DNA of 39,515 bases from Kutzneria sp. 744 (GTDB lineage: Bacteria > Actinomycetota > Actinomycetes > Mycobacteriales > Pseudonocardiaceae): positions 5,491,669 to 5,531,183 of the forward strand of contig NZ_KK037166.1 of the NCBI RefSeq assembly GCF_000568255.1. The letters run 5' to 3'. Under the pieces are notes generated by a model. It was not told the DNA's origin and ran no database searches. It worked only from the letters and a program-made list of their open reading frames with translations. The position numbers were made by a program, and so were the translations under genes. The stretch's first letter is position 1. Every line of letters starts with the position of its first letter. This document shows positions 26,750 through 35,703 of the stretch, piece by piece.

Positions 26750-26826
26750 TGGAGCCGCCTGTCGGAATCGAACCGACGACCTGCTCATTACGAGTGAGCT
26801 GCTCTGGCCGACTGAGCTAAGGCGGC
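26750..26826 (-). tRNA. tRNA-Thr (anticodon CGU)
   Basis: On the minus strand the acceptor GCCGCCT pairs with AGGCGGC, followed by discriminator T and an encoded CCA (26752-26750). The D arm TTAGCTCAGTCGG, the anticodon stem GCTCA/TGAGC with loop CTCGTAA (anticodon CGT, reading ACG), and the T arm GGTTCGATTCC are all present. Length is 74 bases plus CCA. Confidence 0.97.
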
Positions 26827-27020: not shown

Positions 27021-28616
27021 ATGCGAGGTCGACCGCCGCTCGCTCTGGCTCTGCCGGCCGCTGTGGCCATGTTGGCGTTGGGTGCGGGCCCGGCGTTCGG
27101 GGTGCCGACGACGACGCCGGTGCCGGGGCCGGCGAGTCCGGGGCAGCCGCCGGCGTCGGCGGCGAACGGGCCGCAGCCGCTGGGGCATGCGGTGGGGGAT
27201 GCGGGCGGGGGCCTGGCGGTGGTGCGGCTGCTGCCGAACTCGGTGCCGACGTCGACGATCTTGCAGAACCTGCAGGACGAGCTGCCGAAGCAGCCGGCGG
27301 CGGAGGCGGGGTTCGGCCTGTCGAGCGCGCAGGCGAACTCGGAGGCGTATCTGTCGTACGAGCGGGCGATCGCGCAGGCGTCGCCGTTGGGGTTCGCGGT
27401 GGGCGGGAACGCGCCGCAGACGCCGGGGGCGTTGTCGCAGACGGCGCTGCCGGACAATCCGCAGGCGTCGACGGGTGGCCTGACCCCGCCGGCGACGCCG
27501 CTGGACGCGCTGCTGAAGGTGGGCCTGCTCAACGGCAGCGTGCATGCGCGCTGGAGTGAGACGGCGGGCCCGTGTGTGGACACGATCGCGGACGCGCAGA
27601 CGTCGCTGGCTGATCTGTCGCTGCTCAACGCGATCCCGAACCTGCCGAACGTCACGGATCTGACGGGCCTGATCACTCCGAGCGCGAAGCTGGATCAGGG
27701 CACGGCGTCGCAGGTGGTGGACTCGCTGAAGACGATGACGGCCCCGCTGAGCCAGCTGGGTGGCCTGTTGTCGGGCAAGCAGACCTCGGACGGCAAGGGT
27801 TCGCTGGTGAGCCTGCCGAACACGTTGAGCTCCCGCTCCGTGGTGAAGCTGGTGGACATCCCGGGCTCGCCGAACAAGGCGGTGCAGTCGACGTCGACGA
27901 TGCAGGTCGCGAGCGTGAAGGTGCTGGCGGGCACGCCGATGGAGCTGGACATCAACGTGGTGAGCCAGCCGACGCTGCAGGTGACCTCGACGGGTGACCC
28001 GAAGACGTCGACGGTGAGCTACACGGCCCCGGTGTTGCAGGTGGTGCAGGGCGGCAAGACGCTGGGCACGCTGGATGCCGCGAATCCGAAGCTGGATGTG
28101 CCGATCGGGGTGCCGCTGCCGGGCGCGGACCAGCTGGGCAAGCTGCCGATCATCGGGGGCCTGCTGCCGAGCGGCGGCGCTATCCCCGCTGACCTGAAGA
28201 AGATCGACATCGGCGTGCTGCGGTTGCAGATCGCGGAGTTGGACCAGAAGACGCAGGAGATCAAGGGCCAGCCGTTCGACGGCTTTCAGCTGGGCGCGAC
28301 GGCCCGGCTGCTGGATCTGCAGGTGTTGCCGACGGACGCGCTGGGCCTGCCCAACCTGCCGTCGGCGCTGGCCCAGGTGACGCTGGGCGAGCAGGTGGCG
28401 CGGGCGGTGGCGCCGACGGGCGGCGTGGTGTGCGGTTCGACGACGCCGGGCGCGCCGACGGCGAACCCGGGTCCGCAGGGCTCCCCGCCGCTGGCCTACA
28501 CGAACGCCGCCTACGCCACGATCCCGTTGTTCTGGACGGGCACAGCGTTGTTGCTGACCGGGGTTGTTGTTGTCGCGGCGCTGCCGTATCGCCGGCAGCG
28601 CCGCAACAACAGCTGA
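27021..28616 (+). CDS. Secreted, C-terminally membrane-anchored protein of unknown function
   Basis: A 531-residue protein with AGGAGG before the ATG. A Sec-type signal peptide spans residues 1-27 or so (basic start, LALALPAAVAMLALGAGPAFG core). The body is extracytoplasmic, beginning with a Pro/Gly-rich stretch and continuing in a repetitive Leu/Thr/Asp-rich domain with little Cys. A C-terminal membrane segment (IPLFWTGTALLLTGVVVVAALPY, about residues 500-522) is followed by the basic tail RRQRRNNS, the usual design of a type I anchored surface protein. No enzymatic motif was recognised. Its stop is one base from the GH88 stop on the other strand. Confidence 0.82.
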   Translation: MRGRPPLALALPAAVAMLALGAGPAFGVPTTTPVPGPASPGQPPASAANGPQPLGHAVGDAGGGLAVVRLLPNSVPTSTILQNLQDELPKQPAAEAGFGLSSAQANSEAYLSYERAIAQASPLGFAVGGNAPQTPGALSQTALPDNPQASTGGLTPPATPLDALLKVGLLNGSVHARWSETAGPCVDTIADAQTSLADLSLLNAIPNLPNVTDLTGLITPSAKLDQGTASQVVDSLKTMTAPLSQLGGLLSGKQTSDGKGSLVSLPNTLSSRSVVKLVDIPGSPNKAVQSTSTMQVASVKVLAGTPMELDINVVSQPTLQVTSTGDPKTSTVSYTAPVLQVVQGGKTLGTLDAANPKLDVPIGVPLPGADQLGKLPIIGGLLPSGGAIPADLKKIDIGVLRLQIAELDQKTQEIKGQPFDGFQLGATARLLDLQVLPTDALGLPNLPSALAQVTLGEQVARAVAPTGGVVCGSTTPGAPTANPGPQGSPPLAYTNAAYATIPLFWTGTALLLTGVVVVAALPYRRQRRNNS

Positions 28617-28617
28617 C

Positions 28618-29823
28618 TCAGATGTCGAGCGCGAGCTTGGCCCGGTCGGGCCGCAGCACGCGCAGGATCGCCTCCATCATGTAGTAGTCGGCGTAGGGCA
28701 GGCCGATCTCGATGCCGTCCTCGGACGGCCGGTTGCGGGTGCCGCGCGCCAGGATGGCGTCGGCCCGTGCCGACTTGGTGGTCAGGCAGGACCGGCCGAG
28801 CGCGTCGAGGAACCGCAGCGCAGCGGCCTCGTAGCGCGGGTTGCCGGTCAGCTTGGCCAGGTCGAGCAGGCCGGCTGCGTTGACGGTGGCCGCCGATGAG
28901 TCCTTGATGTCGTTCGGGGCCAACGGCGAGCGGTAGTCCCACACCGGCACGTAGTCGTCGGTGATGTGCTGGAGGGTCCAGTCCGCCAGCCGACGCGAGG
29001 TGTCGAGGAACGTCTTGTTCCCGGTGCGCAGGTACATTCGCGCGAAGCCGTACACGCCCCAAGACTGCCCGCGGGACCAGCAGGACGTGGCGCTGTAGCC
29101 CTGCACGGTGTTCTGCCCGATGGCCGCGCCGGTGTCGGGGTTGAAGTCGAACACGTGGCACGTGGTGTTGTCGGGCCGCACCATGTACTTCTGCGCGGTG
29201 GTGGCGTGCGCGACGGCGATGTCCTGGTACTTGCTGTCGCCGGTCATCTTGGTGGCCCAGCACAGCAGGTCCAGGTTCATCATCGTGTCGATGATCATCC
29301 GGCCGGCGTTGTCGGGCGTGCCCAGCGCGCCCCAGGCCCGGATGAACTGGCCCTTCTCGTTGAAGCGCTTGATCAGCTCGCCGGCCGCGACCAGCGCGCC
29401 GTCACGCCACGAGGTGTCGCCGGTCAGCCGGTAGGCGGTGACCCAGGACGGCGTGAACAGGAAGCCCAGGTCGTGGTCGGTGTTCTTGGTCTGCCTGGGC
29501 GCCAGCTTCAGCGCCCAGGACTCGGCCAGCTGCCGGAAGAAGTCGTCGTTGGTGTAGAGGTAGGCCATCCACAGCTGACCCGGCCAGAAGCCGCCGACCC
29601 AGCTGCCGTCGGCCGCGGTCGTGTACTTCTCGAACTTGGTGCCGGTCGGGAACGCCGTCACCGTGGGCGCGACCGCCCGCAGCTTCGCGACGGCGTAGTC
29701 CATCGTGGCCCGCAGGCTGCCGCCGTACGAGGCCTCGGCGGCGGAAGCGGTGGGATTGGCGACCAAGGCTCCTCCAGCGGCGACTGCGGCGCCGGCGATC
29801 AGGTTCCGACGTGACAGGGTCAT
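28618..29823 (-). CDS. GH88 unsaturated glucuronyl hydrolase, Tat-exported
   Basis: A 401-residue enzyme that removes the 4,5-unsaturated uronic acid from the non-reducing end of oligosaccharides made by polysaccharide lyases. The N-terminus is a twin-arginine signal: SRRNLIA followed by a hydrophobic run and cleavage-like TASAAEA near residue 30. The catalytic Asp pair of the family is seen as D118 in TDHDLGFLF and D179 in IIDTMMNL, within the alpha/alpha barrel that also contains GGFWPGQLWMAYL and SCWSRGQSWGVYGFA. The ATG overlaps the permease stop by one base (TGATG). Many known members are cytosolic, so export is a notable point; the export call rests on the signal alone. Confidence 0.92.
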   Translation of the reverse strand: MTLSRRNLIAGAAVAAGGALVANPTASAAEASYGGSLRATMDYAVAKLRAVAPTVTAFPTGTKFEKYTTAADGSWVGGFWPGQLWMAYLYTNDDFFRQLAESWALKLAPRQTKNTDHDLGFLFTPSWVTAYRLTGDTSWRDGALVAAGELIKRFNEKGQFIRAWGALGTPDNAGRMIIDTMMNLDLLCWATKMTGDSKYQDIAVAHATTAQKYMVRPDNTTCHVFDFNPDTGAAIGQNTVQGYSATSCWSRGQSWGVYGFARMYLRTGNKTFLDTSRRLADWTLQHITDDYVPVWDYRSPLAPNDIKDSSAATVNAAGLLDLAKLTGNPRYEAAALRFLDALGRSCLTTKSARADAILARGTRNRPSEDGIEIGLPYADYYMMEAILRVLRPDRAKLALDI

Positions 29824-31457
29824 CAGGGCACCATCCATCCGAGCACAGGGGTGGATTGCAGATAGACGAGCACGCACAGGACCAGCAGCAGGCCGACGCT
29901 CCAGCCGAACACGCGGCGGAACAGCTCGCCCTCCTTGCCCACGAGGCCGACCGCGGCGGTGCCGATGGCCAGGTTCTGCGGCGAAATCATCTTGGCCATC
30001 ACGCCGCCGGAACTGTTGGCGGCGCCGAACAGGATCGGCGAGGCGCCCAACTGGTGCGCGGCGGCGAACTGGGAGCCGCCGAGCAGGGTGTTGGAGCCGA
30101 CGTCGGTGCCGGTGATGGTCACGCCGAACCAGCCGACCACGGGCGACAGGAACGCGAAGAACGCGCCGGTGCCGGCCAGCCAGGAGCCGAGCGTGCCGAT
30201 CTGCCCGGACAGGTTCATCACGTAGGACAGCGCGAACACGGCCAGAATGGCCAGAATGGCCCAGCCGAACTGCCGCACGGTCCGCCCGTAGATCTTCACG
30301 GCGGTGCCGACGCCGACCTTCAGCACGATCAGCGACAGCAGACCGGAGACGAGCAGCAGGGTTCCGGTGGCGCCGAAGAAGTTCAGCGTGTAGCTGGTGT
30401 CCACCTTCTTGCCGGCGGCGTTCTGAATGGACAGTCCGGGCCAGCTGAACTTCCACACGATGGCGTTGAGCGCCTTCTTGATCGGCGCTATCTGGGCCAG
30501 CGAGAAGACCACCACGATGATCGCGTACGGGGTGAAGGCCTTGATCACGTCGGCCCGGCTGTCCCGCACGTCGTCGCCACCGGTCGCCGTCGCCACACCA
30601 CCACCGTTGCCACCGCCGCCTCCCCGGCCGGTGGACACGGTCGCGGTGACCGGCTGCCAGACCCGGACCAGCAGCAACAGGGCGCCGGCCGAGACGACCG
30701 CGGCCAGGATGTCGCACAGCTGGTACGAGAGATAGCTGGACACCAGGAACTGGGTGAGGCCGAAGCTCACACCCGCGACCAGCGCCGCCGGCCAGCACTC
30801 ACGGACGCCCTTGCGGCCGTCGGCGATGTACAGCAGCACGAACGGCACGATCGCGGCCAGGAAGCACACCTGCCGCCCGGCCATCGCGCCGAACTGGTCG
30901 ACCGGCAGGCCGCTGATCGGCCCGAGGGCCGTGATCGGGTTGCCGAGGCCGCCGAAGGCGACGGGCGCGGTGTCGGCGACCAGGGTCAGCGCGGCCGCCT
31001 TGAGCGGGTTCACGCCGAGCGCGATCAGCATCACCGAGCAGATGGCCACCGGGCTGCCGCCGCCGGCGAGCGCTTCGAGCAGCGCGCCGAACGAGAAGGC
31101 GATCACGATGGCCTGCACGCGCGAGTCGTCGCTGACCGAGCTGAAGGCCCGGCGGAGCACCTCGAAGTGCCCGCTGTGCACGGTCAGGTTGTAGACCCAG
31201 ATCGCGTTGAAGGTGATCCACAGGACCAGCAGCACGCTGTTGGCCATGCCGAACAGCCCCGCGTCGAGCGTCTGGCCGATCGGCATTCCGAAGCCGGCGA
31301 CGGCGATCACGATGGAGATCACCAGCGCCGCGATGCCGGCCCAGTGGGCCTTCCAGCGCAGCCCGCCGAGCAGTACGAGCACCGCGACCAGGGGTATCAG
31401 CGCCAGCAACGCGGACAGCGTGAGCGAGCCGGCCGGGTCGAGGGTCTGTCTGAACAC
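29823..31457 (-). CDS. L-lactate permease (LctP)-family transporter
   Basis: A 544-residue inner-membrane carrier with about 12-14 segments. Signature runs include FGALLEALAGGGSPVAI, LVADTAPVAFGGLGNPI and ITGTDVGSNTLLGGSQ, matching the LctP family of monocarboxylate carriers. A Gly-rich insert (RGGGGGNGGG) lies in a central cytosolic loop near residue 280. The family's known substrates are lactate and glycolate. Here the gene is fused into an operon with the GH88 enzyme (stop and start overlap) and divergent from kduI, so a uronate-derived acid is the likelier substrate; that is inference from context. Confidence 0.88.
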   Translation of the reverse strand: MFRQTLDPAGSLTLSALLALIPLVAVLVLLGGLRWKAHWAGIAALVISIVIAVAGFGMPIGQTLDAGLFGMANSVLLVLWITFNAIWVYNLTVHSGHFEVLRRAFSSVSDDSRVQAIVIAFSFGALLEALAGGGSPVAICSVMLIALGVNPLKAAALTLVADTAPVAFGGLGNPITALGPISGLPVDQFGAMAGRQVCFLAAIVPFVLLYIADGRKGVRECWPAALVAGVSFGLTQFLVSSYLSYQLCDILAAVVSAGALLLLVRVWQPVTATVSTGRGGGGGNGGGVATATGGDDVRDSRADVIKAFTPYAIIVVVFSLAQIAPIKKALNAIVWKFSWPGLSIQNAAGKKVDTSYTLNFFGATGTLLLVSGLLSLIVLKVGVGTAVKIYGRTVRQFGWAILAILAVFALSYVMNLSGQIGTLGSWLAGTGAFFAFLSPVVGWFGVTITGTDVGSNTLLGGSQFAAAHQLGASPILFGAANSSGGVMAKMISPQNLAIGTAAVGLVGKEGELFRRVFGWSVGLLLVLCVLVYLQSTPVLGWMVP

Positions 31458-31537
31458 TTCTCACCGCCTTTTTCCCAGGTTGAAGCCCGAATGGAGACCG
31501 GACCCCGTAACCGGCGGCGGTGGCCACGGGGACACTT

Positions 31538-31562
31538 GTTCCGTGGAGCGGAACGTAGTTCC
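31538..31562. promoter_or_regulatory. Candidate IclR operator in the divergent gap
   Basis: Three half-sites, GTTCC (31538), GGAAC (31550) and GTTCC (31558), give two overlapping palindromes with 7-base and 3-base centres. IclR-family sites are often of the GTTCC/GGAAC type. The site lies between lctP and kduI, where a single repressor could control both directions. Confidence 0.5.
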
Positions 31563-31647
31563 ATAAGTGGCGACATCGTGTCATCTGCTTGCAACATCCG
31601 CCAGGGGTCAACCGCCGCTGCCCCCGCTAGCCCAGCAGGAGCACCAC

Positions 31648-32475
31648 ATGGAGGTCAGGCACCACACCAACCCTTCCCAGCTGCGCGGTTTCGACACCGC
31701 CCAGCTGCGGGAGAACTACCTGGTGGAGGACCTGTTCCGGACCGGAGAGGTGCGCACGGTCCTCACCCACGCGGACCGGGTCGTGCTCGGCGGCGCGGCG
31801 CCGGTGCCCGGTCAGCCGCTGACGCTGCCCAACCCGGACCAGCTGCGCTCGACGTCGTTCCTGGAGCGCCGCGAGATGGCGGTGGTCGTGGTCAGCGGCT
31901 CCGGCAGCGTCGTCGTGGACGGCGACAAGCACGAGCTCGGCCACCGGGACTGCCTCTACATCGGCCGCGGCGCAGTGGACGTGCAGTTCCACGCCGGCGA
32001 CTCGGAGACGCACTTCTACCTGTTCTCGGCGACCTCGCACGCCAGCTACCCGACGGCGGTGGCTCGGTTCGAGGAGGTCGATGTCGCCCAGCTCGGCGAG
32101 CAGTCCACGGCCAACGTGCGCGAGCTGCGCAAGTACGTCCACGCCGACGGCATCAAGTCCAGCCAGATCGTGGTCGGCGTGACCAAGCTGGCCGACGGCA
32201 GCGTATGGAACACCATGCCGCCGCACACCCACGACCGCCGCACGGAGTGCTACCTGTACTTCGACCTGCCGGAGAACGACCGCATCGTGCACCTGTGCGG
32301 CGAGCCGCAGGAGACGCGCAACATCATCGTGGCCAACGAGCAGGCCGTGGTGTCACCGAGCTGGTCCATCCACAGTGGAGCCGGCACGCACTCGTACGCC
32401 TTCGTGTGGGCGATGGCCGGCGAGAACCAGGCCTTCACCGACATGGACCAGGTCGCCGTGACGGAGCTGCGCTGA
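31648..32475 (+). CDS. kduI: 5-dehydro-4-deoxy-D-glucuronate isomerase
   Basis: KduI converts 5-keto-4-deoxyuronate to 3-deoxy-D-glycero-2,5-hexodiulosonate, an early step in unsaturated uronate breakdown. The ATG at 31648 is preceded by AGGAGC; the longer frame from 31567 is non-conserved. At 275 residues the protein is near the E. coli length, and the zinc ligands are intact as H193, H195, E200 and H242 (PPHTHDRRTE and SIHSGAGTH). It is a bicupin and probably cytosolic. The stop overlaps the kduD start (TGATG). It is divergent from the lctP-GH88 operon. Confidence 0.94.
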   Translation: MEVRHHTNPSQLRGFDTAQLRENYLVEDLFRTGEVRTVLTHADRVVLGGAAPVPGQPLTLPNPDQLRSTSFLERREMAVVVVSGSGSVVVDGDKHELGHRDCLYIGRGAVDVQFHAGDSETHFYLFSATSHASYPTAVARFEEVDVAQLGEQSTANVRELRKYVHADGIKSSQIVVGVTKLADGSVWNTMPPHTHDRRTECYLYFDLPENDRIVHLCGEPQETRNIIVANEQAVVSPSWSIHSGAGTHSYAFVWAMAGENQAFTDMDQVAVTELR

Positions 32476-33221
32476 TGTTCTTGCTCAAGGGCAGGACCGC
32501 CCTGGTCACCGGGGCCCGGACCGGCATCGGCAAGGCCATCGCGGTCGGCCTGGCCCAGGCCGGGGCCGACCTGGTGGTGCTCGGGCACAGCCCCGACTTC
32601 GCCGACGTGACGGCCGAGGCCGAGGCGGCCGGCGCGAGCGTGGAGACGCTGGTCGTCGACCTGTCCGACCCGGCCGCGGTCGAGCCGGCGCTGGCCGAGG
32701 TGCTGGCCCGCCGCGAGGTGGACGTGCTGGTCAACAACGCCGGCATCATCCACCGGCAGCCGGCGACGGACGTGGCGCTGGAGGACTGGCGGCGCGTGCA
32801 GGCGGTGAACCTGGACTCGGTGTTCGCGCTGAGCCAGGCCGTCGGCCGGCAGATGACCGCCCGCGGCTCCGGCAAGATCATCACCATCGCCTCGCTGCTG
32901 AGCTTCCAGGGCGGCATCAACGTCAGCGGCTACACCACCAGCAAGCACGCGGTGGCCGGCCTGACCAAGGCGCTGGCCAACGAGTGGGCGCCACACGGCG
33001 TGCAGGTCAACGCCATCGCGCCCGGCTACATCGCCACCAACAACACCGAGGCGCTGCGGGCCGACCCGGACCGTGAGCCGGCGATCCGCGGCCGCATCCC
33101 GGCCGGCCGCTGGGGCAAGCCCGAGGACCTGGTGGGCGCGGCCGTGTTCCTGGCCTCCTCGGCGTCGGACTACGTCAACGGTCACGTGCTGGTCGTCGAC
33201 GGCGGGTGGATGTCGCGTTGA
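32475..33221 (+). CDS. kduD: 2-dehydro-3-deoxy-D-gluconate 5-dehydrogenase
   Basis: KduD reduces the KduI product to 2-keto-3-deoxygluconate with NAD(P)H. This is a classical 248-residue short-chain dehydrogenase: nucleotide motif TGARTGIG (12-19), NNAG (87-90), and the catalytic S140, Y153 and K157 in SGYTTSK. The run GRIPAGRWGKPEDL followed by VVDGGWMSR at the C-terminus is typical of KduD. It overlaps kduI by one base and iclR by 16 bases if the GTG start of iclR is used, so the three are probably one transcript. A KDG kinase and aldolase are not in this window. Confidence 0.93.
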   Translation: MFLLKGRTALVTGARTGIGKAIAVGLAQAGADLVVLGHSPDFADVTAEAEAAGASVETLVVDLSDPAAVEPALAEVLARREVDVLVNNAGIIHRQPATDVALEDWRRVQAVNLDSVFALSQAVGRQMTARGSGKIITIASLLSFQGGINVSGYTTSKHAVAGLTKALANEWAPHGVQVNAIAPGYIATNNTEALRADPDREPAIRGRIPAGRWGKPEDLVGAAVFLASSASDYVNGHVLVVDGGWMSR

Positions 33222-33940
33222 CCGAGGGCGCGGTCGAGAAGGCGCTCGCCGTGCTGGCGGCGCTCGCGCAGCACACCAGGATCAGCGAGCTGACCCGGGT
33301 GACCGGCTTCCCCAAGTCGACCGTGCACCGGGTGCTGCGCACGCTGGTGGACACCGGCTTCGCGGTGGCCACCGCCGACGGCGACTACCGCATCGGCCCG
33401 AAGGTGTTGGTGCTGGCCGGAAACGTGCTGCAGCCGGTGGATTCCGTCGAGCGGGCGCGCCCGGTGCTGGAGCGGTTGCAGGCCAGCACCGGGTGCGCCG
33501 TGCACTTCGCGATGCTGCTCGGCGACGAGCTGGTGTACGTCGACAAGGTCGAGGGCGGCAAGCCGTACCGGATGGCGTCGCGCATCGGTGGCCGATTGTT
33601 GTTGCACTGCACGGCGATCGGCAAGGCAGTGCTGTCCACAAGGGACATGAACGGGCTGGAGCTCGCGCCACGGACCCCCGGCACGATCACCGACCCGCTG
33701 CGATTGCGGGCCCAGCTGGACCGGGTCCGCAGCTGCGGATTCGCCTTGGACGAGCAGGAGAACGAGCCGGGGGTGCGCTGTGTCGGCGCGGCCGTGCGCA
33801 ACCACAACGGGACCGTGGTCGGCGGGCTGAGCGTGTCGACGCTGGCGCTGGAGCACACGCTGCCGGAGCTGATCGCGCTCGGGCCGCGTGTGGTGGCCGC
33901 GGCCAGCGAGGTGTCGCGGGCGCTCGGCCACACCCACTAG
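33206..33940 (+). CDS. IclR-family transcriptional regulator
   Basis: A 244-residue regulator of the KdgR-like type by context. The N-terminal winged helix (about residues 10-65, ISELTRVTGFPKSTVHRVLRTL) is followed by an effector-binding domain (about 75-240). The GTG at 33206 or the TTG at 33218, which overlaps the kduD stop as TTGA, could be the start. It probably represses the kdu and lctP-GH88 operons through the site at 31538-31562 and is released by 2-keto-3-deoxygluconate or a related acid, as for KdgR in enterobacteria. The effector is inferred. Confidence 0.88.
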   Translation: MDVALTEGAVEKALAVLAALAQHTRISELTRVTGFPKSTVHRVLRTLVDTGFAVATADGDYRIGPKVLVLAGNVLQPVDSVERARPVLERLQASTGCAVHFAMLLGDELVYVDKVEGGKPYRMASRIGGRLLLHCTAIGKAVLSTRDMNGLELAPRTPGTITDPLRLRAQLDRVRSCGFALDEQENEPGVRCVGAAVRNHNGTVVGGLSVSTLALEHTLPELIALGPRVVAAASEVSRALGHTH

Positions 33941-33945
33941 CCGGG

Positions 33946-35703
33946 TATTCCGCACGTGAGGATTGATCAACTCGGGATGATCGTCGAGTGGGATGTTATT
34001 TGATCATCTCGGCTGGGTGGGGTCGACACCGAGTAGGTCCAGGAGCCTGGCTTGTAGCGGGGGTGGTTGCGGAATCCCTGGTGGTTGCCCGTTGACAGCG
34101 GGAATCAGGCGAAGCCGGGCGAGCGCTTCGAAAATCAGCCGCCCGGTGGGCTTGGCGGGTCTGCCCGCGTAGAGGCCGTCGAGCGTGATGTGCGGGGCGA
34201 TCGCCTGCCGGACTTGACGTTCGATCAGACAGAAGATCAGCAGTGCCAGGCAGATCACGGTGATCAGGGCAGCGATGCGCCGGTTGTTCTTCACGAACAG
34301 CGGTGCCACTGCCAGGGGGCCTTTGACGGCGCCGTAGCGGCGTTCCACAACCTCCTGGCCTTTGTAGCGGATCAGGATCTCGGCCGGGTCGACGTCGGCG
34401 GGCAGGTTGGTCAGCAGCGCGTACCAGCCGTCGGTGGCGGTCTCGGCATCCAGCGCCGCGTGGTCGAACCACCAGCGCAGGATGGGTTTGCCGGTGGCAG
34501 GATCGGTGCCGGTCTCGGTGCGCAGGTAGGCAGTGACCCGGCGGGCGGCCGCGATCGCGGCGATCCGGGCGGTCACCGCCTTCTCGTCGGGGTAATGCCG
34601 GGAGCCCAGGCCCCGGACCAGCCGGTCCAGATCGTCGCGAGCACGGTCGAGTTTGCGGGCCCGCGCGGTGGCCGCGGCGCGGGCTCGGGCGGTGGAGTGC
34701 ACGAACACCCGCCGCAGCGTGAGCACCGGGTCACGCTTGCGTTTGCCCGCCAGCGTCATCGTGTCCTCGGTGACTCGCCAGCGGCCACGGTCGGCGGCTG
34801 GTTTGCCCGCGTCCCGTTCGGCGACGTAGTCCACCTCGGCGGCCGAGTCGAGGTCCAGCGCGGCCAGCGTCGCGGCCGGCGTGTAGGCCTTCGACGCGGG
34901 CGCGACGAACCCGACACCGGAGGCGATCATCGCCGAGACATTGGCGTAGGACACCAGCTTGGAGTCCCCGACCAGCAGGAACTCTCGGGGTCTGGCCATA
35001 GTCTGCAGCGCGCTCATCGCGCCCACCACCTGGGCGACTTCGCCCGCGCCACCGTCGTAGGCCCGGTGGAACACCGGCACACCACCATCGCCGGTGACCG
35101 CCAGCCCGGCCTGGATCTGCTTCAGGTCGGGGCGGCGGTCTTTGGGGTGCCCGAACTTCGGCGCCGGGTGGTCGGTGTCGGCCTGGTCGTAGGCGCCGTA
35201 CAGCGAGATCGAGGTCATGTCCCAATGAAGCCGGGATGTGTCCAGCCCGAACATCGAGATCGCTTGTGCGCCAACGGACCCGACGATGTGATCGAGTTCG
35301 GGGGCGATCGCGTCCAACGCCCGGCCGATCCGGTCGTCGTTGAGCAGCGTGGGCTCGATGCCGAAGACCTCCTCGACCGCGTGCTCGCGGGCCCAGTCGG
35401 TCACCCGGACCAGTGGTGCTGGTGAGGTCAGTCGGTTCGCGACCAGCGCTTCGATCACCTGTCCGTGGGTCAGGAGTGCGAGATCACGCACCGGGCAGGC
35501 GCGGTCGATGATCCCGGCCAGGTCCAGACGGCGACAGTAATCGGCGATCACCGGCAGCGCGCCCAGTGTTTTCTCCACACTCGCCGCGACATAGCGAGCC
35601 CGTCGTCGTGCACGTTGATCCACGACTGAACACCCTGGCAGAGCCCTTGACCGAGCGGACACCGGCCCGCGTGATCAACTCACCTGTGTCCATGTGCGGA
35701 AGA
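33946..35703 (-). mobile_element. IS1634-type insertion sequence, 1,758 bp
   Basis: The ends are TATTCCGCACGTG (left) and, on the other strand, TCTTCCGCACATG (right), with few mismatches over 13 bases. A 4-bp duplication, CGGG, flanks it (33942-33945 and 35704-35707). The element lies five bases after the iclR stop. TTGATCA repeats occur near both ends. One transposase gene is inside. The exact end position has an uncertainty of one or two bases because the inverted repeats are short. Confidence 0.8.
34004..35662 (-). CDS. IS1634-family transposase
   Basis: A 552-residue DDE transposase with a GTG start. The catalytic Asp residues are seen in LHWDMTSISLYG and LLVGDSKLVSYA, and the Glu region is near the C-terminus (GQEVVERRYGAVKGPL), followed by the family's long hydrophobic run AALITVICLALLIFCLIE. 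The catalytic domain carries a large insert between the second Asp and the Glu, as is normal for IS1634 and IS4-like enzymes. It looks complete. Confidence 0.9.
   Translation of the reverse strand: MSARSRALPGCSVVDQRARRRARYVAASVEKTLGALPVIADYCRRLDLAGIIDRACPVRDLALLTHGQVIEALVANRLTSPAPLVRVTDWAREHAVEEVFGIEPTLLNDDRIGRALDAIAPELDHIVGSVGAQAISMFGLDTSRLHWDMTSISLYGAYDQADTDHPAPKFGHPKDRRPDLKQIQAGLAVTGDGGVPVFHRAYDGGAGEVAQVVGAMSALQTMARPREFLLVGDSKLVSYANVSAMIASGVGFVAPASKAYTPAATLAALDLDSAAEVDYVAERDAGKPAADRGRWRVTEDTMTLAGKRKRDPVLTLRRVFVHSTARARAAATARARKLDRARDDLDRLVRGLGSRHYPDEKAVTARIAAIAAARRVTAYLRTETGTDPATGKPILRWWFDHAALDAETATDGWYALLTNLPADVDPAEILIRYKGQEVVERRYGAVKGPLAVAPLFVKNNRRIAALITVICLALLIFCLIERQVRQAIAPHITLDGLYAGRPAKPTGRLIFEALARLRLIPAVNGQPPGIPQPPPLQARLLDLLGVDPTQPR

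Follow-up and report, generated by a model that had tools for sequence, protein, structure and literature searches.

In the glycosaminoglycan loci of streptococci and lactobacilli, unsaturated disaccharides are imported by phosphotransferase system (PTS) or ATP-binding cassette (ABC) carriers and are then cut in the cytosol by an unsaturated glucuronyl hydrolase, UGL (PMC12838403). The hydrolase, of family GH88, feeds an isomerase-reductase pair (DhuD/DhuI or KduI). The locus considered here, at positions 28618-33940 of a 39,515-nucleotide stretch of Kutzneria sp. 744 DNA (the window; its source genome of 11.6 Mb is a single contig), also combines a GH88 gene with kduI and kduD. However, its GH88 has an export motif, and its presumptive carrier is of another family, LctP, to which the lactate permeases belong. 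The Dickeya pectin system shares the KduI and KduD steps; its oligogalacturonides enter by TogMNAB (PMC12838403).

The initial annotation of the window held that known systems mostly import the disaccharide and cut it in the cytosol. That is documented for PTS and ABC import, but the GH88 enzyme BT3348 of the Bacteroides hyaluronan/chondroitin polysaccharide utilisation locus (PUL) is described as periplasmic, outside the cytoplasmic membrane (PMC12877422), as proposed for the GH88 of the window, so that outside cutting is not new in itself. The Bacteroides system is Gram-negative with SusC/D-based outer-membrane import, and LctP is not mentioned in the accessible part of its description (PMC12877422). 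Carriage of a free, closely related deoxy-keto-uronate, DEH, is known for the fungal transporter Ac_DHT1, which resembles quinate transporters rather than LctP (PMC8778563). The LctP/LldP family itself (E. coli LldP and GlcA; S. aureus LctP and LldP) is like the window permease in sequence family, length, motifs and predicted fold. Its annotated substrates, lactate and glycolate, were correctly given at the outset; pyruvate, taken up by S. aureus LctP and LldP, has to be added (PMC12632267). The family's usual neighbours are lldRD or glcBGF, whereas the window permease lies beside kdu genes. Open-licence literature, searched by titles and abstract starts among the matches listed, gave no bacterial LctP-family carrier for free 5-keto-4-deoxyuronate, and no paper that combines a lactate permease with an unsaturated glucuronyl hydrolase or LctP with pectin and actinobacteria.

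Proposed pathway

It is likely that hydrolysis takes place outside the cell and that the LctP protein then imports the monomer, 5-keto-4-deoxyuronate. The two transcripts would form a unit that scavenges uronate. Oligomers with an unsaturated uronyl end would come from a polysaccharide lyase encoded elsewhere in the genome, and the GH88 enzyme, exported by the twin-arginine translocation (Tat) route to judge by its motif and catalytic residues, would take off that residue outside the membrane. The freed unsaturated uronyl residue opens to 5-keto-4-deoxyuronate. The LctP protein, as an elevator-type carrier that is probably proton-driven like E. coli LldP, would import this acid, KduI and KduD would convert it to 2-keto-3-deoxygluconate (KDG), and a KDG-kinase-like protein and an Eda-type aldolase, also encoded elsewhere, would complete the pathway. 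The IclR protein would control both transcripts from a shared operator, probably repressing them until it is released by an intermediate of the pathway.

A wider reading, to which we give reasonable though lesser credence, is that the LctP family has produced two independently evolved deoxyuronate carriers with the same pocket change (F133G, G170, N173), each with kduI-kduD and iclR as neighbours. The carrier of the window clade would be paired with Tat-exported GH88, a Gram-positive form of outside cutting and monomer import that stands in for the ABC importer and cytosolic GH88 of related actinomycetes. The comparative evidence supports well the interpretation first put forward for this locus, with the transport step itself one that we infer. 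What is new is the pairing of known enzymes with a known carrier family and, probably, the substrate class for that carrier. The breakdown of pectin and that of glycosaminoglycans both have 5-keto-4-deoxyuronate as a hub. If these proteins carry it, the annotation "lactate permease" hides sugar-acid carriers distinguishable by three residues, and both annotation and models of soil cross-feeding would change.

Linkage of the permease gene to kduI, kduD and the GH88 gene

All five genes lie where the initial annotation had placed them, divergent arrangement included. On the reverse strand are the genes for the permease (29823-31457, 544 amino acids) and the GH88 unsaturated uronyl hydrolase (28618-29823, 401 amino acids), whose ATG start at 29823 gives a one-base overlap with the LctP stop. 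On the forward strand are kduI, for 5-keto-4-deoxyuronate isomerase (31648-32475, 275 amino acids), kduD, for 2-keto-3-deoxygluconate 5-dehydrogenase (32475-33221), and the iclR-family gene (33206-33940); kduI and kduD overlap by one base and the iclR start falls within the end of kduD. The KduI start is probably ATG 31648, which matches orthologs, rather than the first GTG. KduI scores 380.4 bits with the equivalog model NF002091 (cut-off 250). KduD is just over the cut-off of TIGR01832 (339.6 bits against 338.85) and below that of NF005390 (338.5 against 369).

The permease was searched against 249 family genomes, and its closest orthologs were taken among the matches listed, a scope that applies to all counts given for them. 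The best 26, own genome included, are 66-100% identical to it and other full-length matches are at most 58% identical; one partial match at 62% (G134) was left out of the ortholog reading. Divergent kduI-kduD lies beside all 26, and the linkage is more than chance. The GH88 gene follows directly behind the permease gene in 19 of them, while the next four loci have none of kduI, kduD and GH88 within about 1.5 kb. In one of the 26 (G137; L027/L056) KduI is apparently split across two frames, by decay or by sequencing error. A reading of 52 loci in named genomes, 15 of which repeat permeases of the 26-ortholog set so that the two counts are not independent, found kduI adjoining the permease gene in 27 (in L116 on the permease's strand) and GH88 in 14. 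None of the 16 most distant named loci has kduI, iclR or GH88; one gives a weak match to a short-chain dehydrogenase/reductase. The gene set thus recurs in many genera of actinomycetes, as had been asked of the first interpretation. Ten proteins, most of them encoded next to loci without GH88 or kdu genes, showed no common theme in family scans.

Two groups of family genomes, g27 and g43, have a different LctP, about 40% identical, in the order kduI-kduD-iclR-lctP (6 of 6 loci read); it is here called clade B, and the window type clade A. In one of these loci (L253, G027) the clade-B LctP is apparently cut short, again by decay or by sequencing error.

Permease family, predicted structure and signature residues

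Membership of the LctP family is clear from the scores (TIGR00795 414.4 bits, cut-off 341.15; PF02652 415.5, cut-off 27), and the permease falls far below the LldP and GlcA equivalog cut-offs (376.2 against 918 and 392.6 against 1121 bits). A separate LctP paralog, of the type with phenylalanine at position 133 (F-type), is encoded in the same genome (C1:2463354-2464898). A model made from 69 aligned sequences has a predicted local distance difference test score (pLDDT) of 90.2 and a predicted template-modelling score (pTM) of 0.89; a first model from 16 close sequences (pLDDT 50.7) was set aside. Foldseek matches include NaS1, NaDC1, VcINDY, YdaH, MtrF and TRAP-M, at E values of 1.8e-6 to 8.5e-4, and the best match, MleN, is itself an integrative model. 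Seventeen chains are matched at E of 0.001 or below, which by name we take to be of the ion-transporter superfamily (DASS, TRAP-M, AbgT, ArsB), and the model suggests the fold of that superfamily, the comparison resting on template-modelling scores (TM-scores) of only 0.25-0.52.

Helices of the model are broken at residues 131-134 and 162-169. In the ion-transporter superfamily, helix breaks of this sort form the substrate site. Since G133 sits in the first break and G170-N173 just after the second, these residues may well have a role in the pocket. Their codons are at 31059-31061 (G133), 30948-30950 (G170) and 30939-30941 (N173), all on the reverse strand. The residue comparison comprised 37 rows of linked clade-A permeases, 5 of linked clade-B permeases and 31 of other LctPs, with six short, long or broken rows excluded. 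The three residues occur together in 37/37, 5/5 and 0/31, respectively. Position 133 is Phe in 30 of the 31 other rows, position 170 is Ala or Ser in all 31, and Asn is found at 173 in none of the 31. The signature is missing from other LctPs, the genome's own paralog as well as LldP and GlcA of E. coli among them; the LctP/LldP family has F, A, and I or V at the three positions. Among the excluded rows L116, L117 and L123 show G133/N173 motifs, and L119, L125 and the readable first motif of L126 are of F-type. Neither G133 nor the GNP motif was found in 20 further phylum LctP loci, and neither kduI nor GH88 was near them, three of these stretches being shorter than 8 kb. As far as these alignments go, G133 and N173 belong strictly to the kdu-linked clades; G170 does so with few exceptions, as it also occurs in three other F-type rows (L230, L233, L235). 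The nearest relatives of clade B have F133, S170 and V173, yet have G478, M487 and G499 in common with it; these latter three, first counted in the signature as shared by clades A and B, were dropped for that reason, the relatives in question having no kdu linkage. [In one distant actinomycete, G378, two different F-type LctP genes, with FGGFGIP and FGSLGVP motifs, are in tandem (L228 2556-6142).]

A careful LctP tree of 63 rows, from which the signature columns and their neighbours were removed, needs two origins. A single clade appears in 0 of 200 bootstrap trees, and constraining the tree to one lowers the log-likelihood by 157 and is rejected (approximately unbiased test, p-AU 2.85e-58, signature columns left out). 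Loss of F133 with gain of G170 and N173 would suit a six-carbon polyhydroxy acid that shares with lactate and pyruvate an oxygenated carbon adjacent to the carboxylate. Because the same residues changed at both origins, the proposed switch in specificity is open to a direct test.

The permease could instead be an ordinary carrier of lactate, glycolate or pyruvate, placed by chance or moving a fermentation product. Its family membership would fit this, as would nine close-group loci of the 52 named that are not beside kduI (L091, L093, L094, L097, L098, L100, L101, L117 and L123). But the kdu linkage is conserved and recurs with LctP in a second, distant clade, the operator described below is shared, the same residues changed twice, and the genome has an F-type paralog besides. 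All this speaks against such a carrier, and we regard it as the least probable of the readings weighed here.

Probable export of GH88, and ABC importers at other kduI loci

The GH88 protein scores 42.4 bits with PF07470 (cut-off 26.6) and aligns over residues 32-366 with the unsaturated glucuronyl hydrolase of PDB entry 1vd5 (phmmer E 4.5e-63). D118 and D179 align with two Asp of 1vd5 that are presumably the catalytic residues of GH88, and among 29 distinct relatives they are kept in 28 and 29, respectively. Export had been the weakest link of the initial annotation. The N-terminus, MTLSRRNLIAGAAVAAGGALVANPTASAAE, is twin-arginine-like by motif, and residues 1-28 (29740-29823, reverse strand) form a probable Tat signal peptide, SRRNLI being followed by a hydrophobic stretch and AxA; cleavage, placed by eye, would be after ASA. 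The motif test was a regular expression, not a trained signal-peptide predictor. The link is strengthened by relatives, as a twin-arginine motif and hydrophobic stretch, usually with AxA, are present in 25 of 26 distinct exported-type GH88s (55-100% identity) and in none of five from ABC-type loci (three by the motif test; L249 and L254 by eye). The sole exported-type gene without the motif is that of G057 (L037), which is apparently spread over two frames, by decay or by sequencing error. The motif is present in 20 of the 21 that stand behind an LctP and in all five that stand elsewhere, so that export is not confined to GH88s paired with LctP. In G034, a genome without a KduI match, the genes for KduD and a Tat-motif GH88 are arranged head to head (L181 5749-8000). 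Tallies of exported GH88 against signature LctP by genome, and by genus (6 with both, 4 + 4 with one, 32 with neither, p 0.003), were made by hand from loci not all of which were read, and no weight is placed on them here.

Where the hydrolase is located goes with the type of carrier. Of 46 family genomes with KduI matches, 26 have a clade-A LctP, eight a clade-B LctP (six read, two by coordinates), and six (g21) no LctP, the four of these that were read all having an ABC importer. A further four, all Lentzea, have neither LctP nor a detected ABC importer, and two have a short KduI match only, one of which was read (L184). Across a phylum sample KduI is in 6 of 366 genomes, own included; the other five are without an LctP match, and each of the three with enough flank has ABC-importer proteins near. 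Outside Lentzea, then, an ABC importer is present at 7 of 7 judgeable KduI loci without LctP. Relatives of these importer proteins are found at 1 of 43 LctP-type loci (in L171, some 4 kb past the permease) in a search that is blind to unrelated ABC systems and missed the one in L250. In the loci that combine kduI-kduD, an ABC importer and GH88 (L176-L178, L249, L254), KduI, KduD and GH88 are of the same families as in the window, but the GH88s are 39-41% identical and lack the export motif, and the ABC importer is where the window has LctP.

These counts make it very unlikely that the GH88 is inactive outside or acts inside, with the permease or an unseen carrier importing the unsaturated disaccharide for cytosolic cutting. 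Known Streptococcus systems do take up the disaccharide, by PTS or ABC carriers (PMC12838403), and a regular expression is a coarse guide to export. Nevertheless, the motif distinguishes the exported-type GH88s from those at ABC-type loci, 42 of the 43 LctP-type loci have no relative of the ABC importer proteins, and a disaccharide would be a larger stretch than a monomer for LctP carriers, which are known for C2-C3 acids.

A conserved operator between the divergent genes

Between lctP and kduI, at 31537-31563, is a three-half-site operator that matches the pattern TGGAACNNCGTTCYGNNNNNYGGAACA without mismatch, none being expected by chance in the window. The pattern was scored by mismatches in the region before lctP, with thirty shuffles per region. 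Among the 27 kdu-linked named loci there are at most two mismatches in 19, four to five in seven and seven in L116. The shuffles average 7.4-8.2 mismatches with minima of 4-7, so that the class with four to five is weak on its own, and L096 does no better than its best shuffle. Mismatches number 7-9 in fifteen distant loci and five or fewer in four of the nine close loci without kduI. In clade B the operator is not shared (5-8 mismatches). Six of seven genomes of the genus have the exact site once each, at the kdu-lctP locus, and an exact site is also kept at kduI in L184 and in the four Lentzea loci that lack LctP. Conservation of the operator between the divergent units argues for their co-regulation, as the initial annotation would have it.

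KdgR, the regulator of the Dickeya pectin system, is an IclR-family regulator. The regulator of the window is an IclR-family protein (PF01614 and PF09339 over cut-off), but it is below the cut-off of the KdgR model (NF011671, 127.3 against 275 bits). The position and form of the operator point to this protein as its putative ligand. A wider regulon was considered and rejected, as the genus-wide pattern search gave the exact site only at the kdu-lctP locus. A recurrent site with two mismatches, in 5 of 7 genomes (three read), is in or at the edge of coding open reading frames (ORFs) taken by eye for sulfate-adenylyltransferase genes; a site with three mismatches adjoins an ORF that is TetR-like by eye.

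Downstream steps, source polymer and substrate

The genome has two matches to PF01081 (Eda-type aldolase). It encodes a protein with 56% identity to the PfkB kinase that adjoins kduI in g21, for which the best model is a kinase for KDG or 2-keto-3-deoxygalactonate (KDGal), below cut-off. It also has one match to polysaccharide lyase family PL8 and two to PL1, none near the window. All six Kutzneria genomes that have the locus encode PL8, and four of the six PL1; PL8 is in no sampled g8 (Lentzea) genome. For the clade-A genomes, PL1 or PL8 is present in 15 of 19 with GH88 and in 0 of 7 without it (p 0.0005, uncorrected for ancestry, the seven GH88-less genomes being of two genera). Assignment of a single polymer was rejected, as PL8 is missing from the sampled g8 genomes and neither family is encoded near the locus in its own genome.

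Several observations weigh against import of 5-keto-4-deoxyuronate by signature LctPs. The signature was identified after grouping, and with only two events a sign test on independent pairs is powerless. It is present in clade-A members for which no kduI lies within 8 kb (7 of 83 tree rows, namely L091, L093, L094, L097, L098, L100 and L101, and also L117 and L123), two of which, L098 and L100, have an ABC solute-binding protein gene beside the permease, and in the clade-B iclR-lctP pairs L174 and L175 (G085 and G054, both g16). Seven of the 26 closest orthologs have no GH88. Four g8 loci, probably Lentzea (L166-L169 in G083, G123, G203 and G244), have kduI-kduD-iclR and the exact operator with neither LctP nor GH88 nor a detected ABC importer. 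The TM-scores of the fold comparison are low, and monomeric DEH is described as mostly hydrated and cyclic in water (PMC8778563), which weakens the plain keto-acid analogy.

Signature LctPs in genomes without kduI leave room for another sugar acid. The permease might import, for instance, galacturonate, glucuronate, or 2-keto-3-deoxygluconate from exported enzymes or neighbours, KduI and KduD then handling part of a mixture. Besides g16, where the search of family genomes gave no KduI match, the seven orthologs without GH88, whose genomes are also without a PL1 or PL8 match, would fit this, and E. coli KduI is reported to act on galacturonate and glucuronate (PMC3578941). Set against it are the presence of kduI-kduD beside 26 of 26 clade-A orthologs and at 6 of 6 clade-B loci read, and the fact that GH88 yields exactly the KduI substrate. 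On balance such a substrate is unlikely, and 5-keto-4-deoxyuronate is preferred.

In g16 a Tat-motif GH88 is encoded away from the iclR-lctP pair (L179). Each of the four Lentzea loci has a secreted protein of about 450 amino acids beside kduI, which, in the one of the four tested, gave no Pfam or PDB match.

Neighbouring features

Directly behind iclR is a gene for an IS1634-family transposase (34004-35662, reverse strand; NF033559 269.8 bits against a cut-off of 100). Convergent with the GH88 gene is one for a 531-amino-acid protein (27021-28616, forward strand). Its N-terminus is signal-like, and neither Pfam nor NCBIfam gave a match. A tRNA-Thr (CGT) gene is at 26750-26826 on the reverse strand, within a long spurious ORF. 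In Solihabitans (L088 9635-11560) the ORF behind the permease has a start resembling that of the 531-amino-acid protein.

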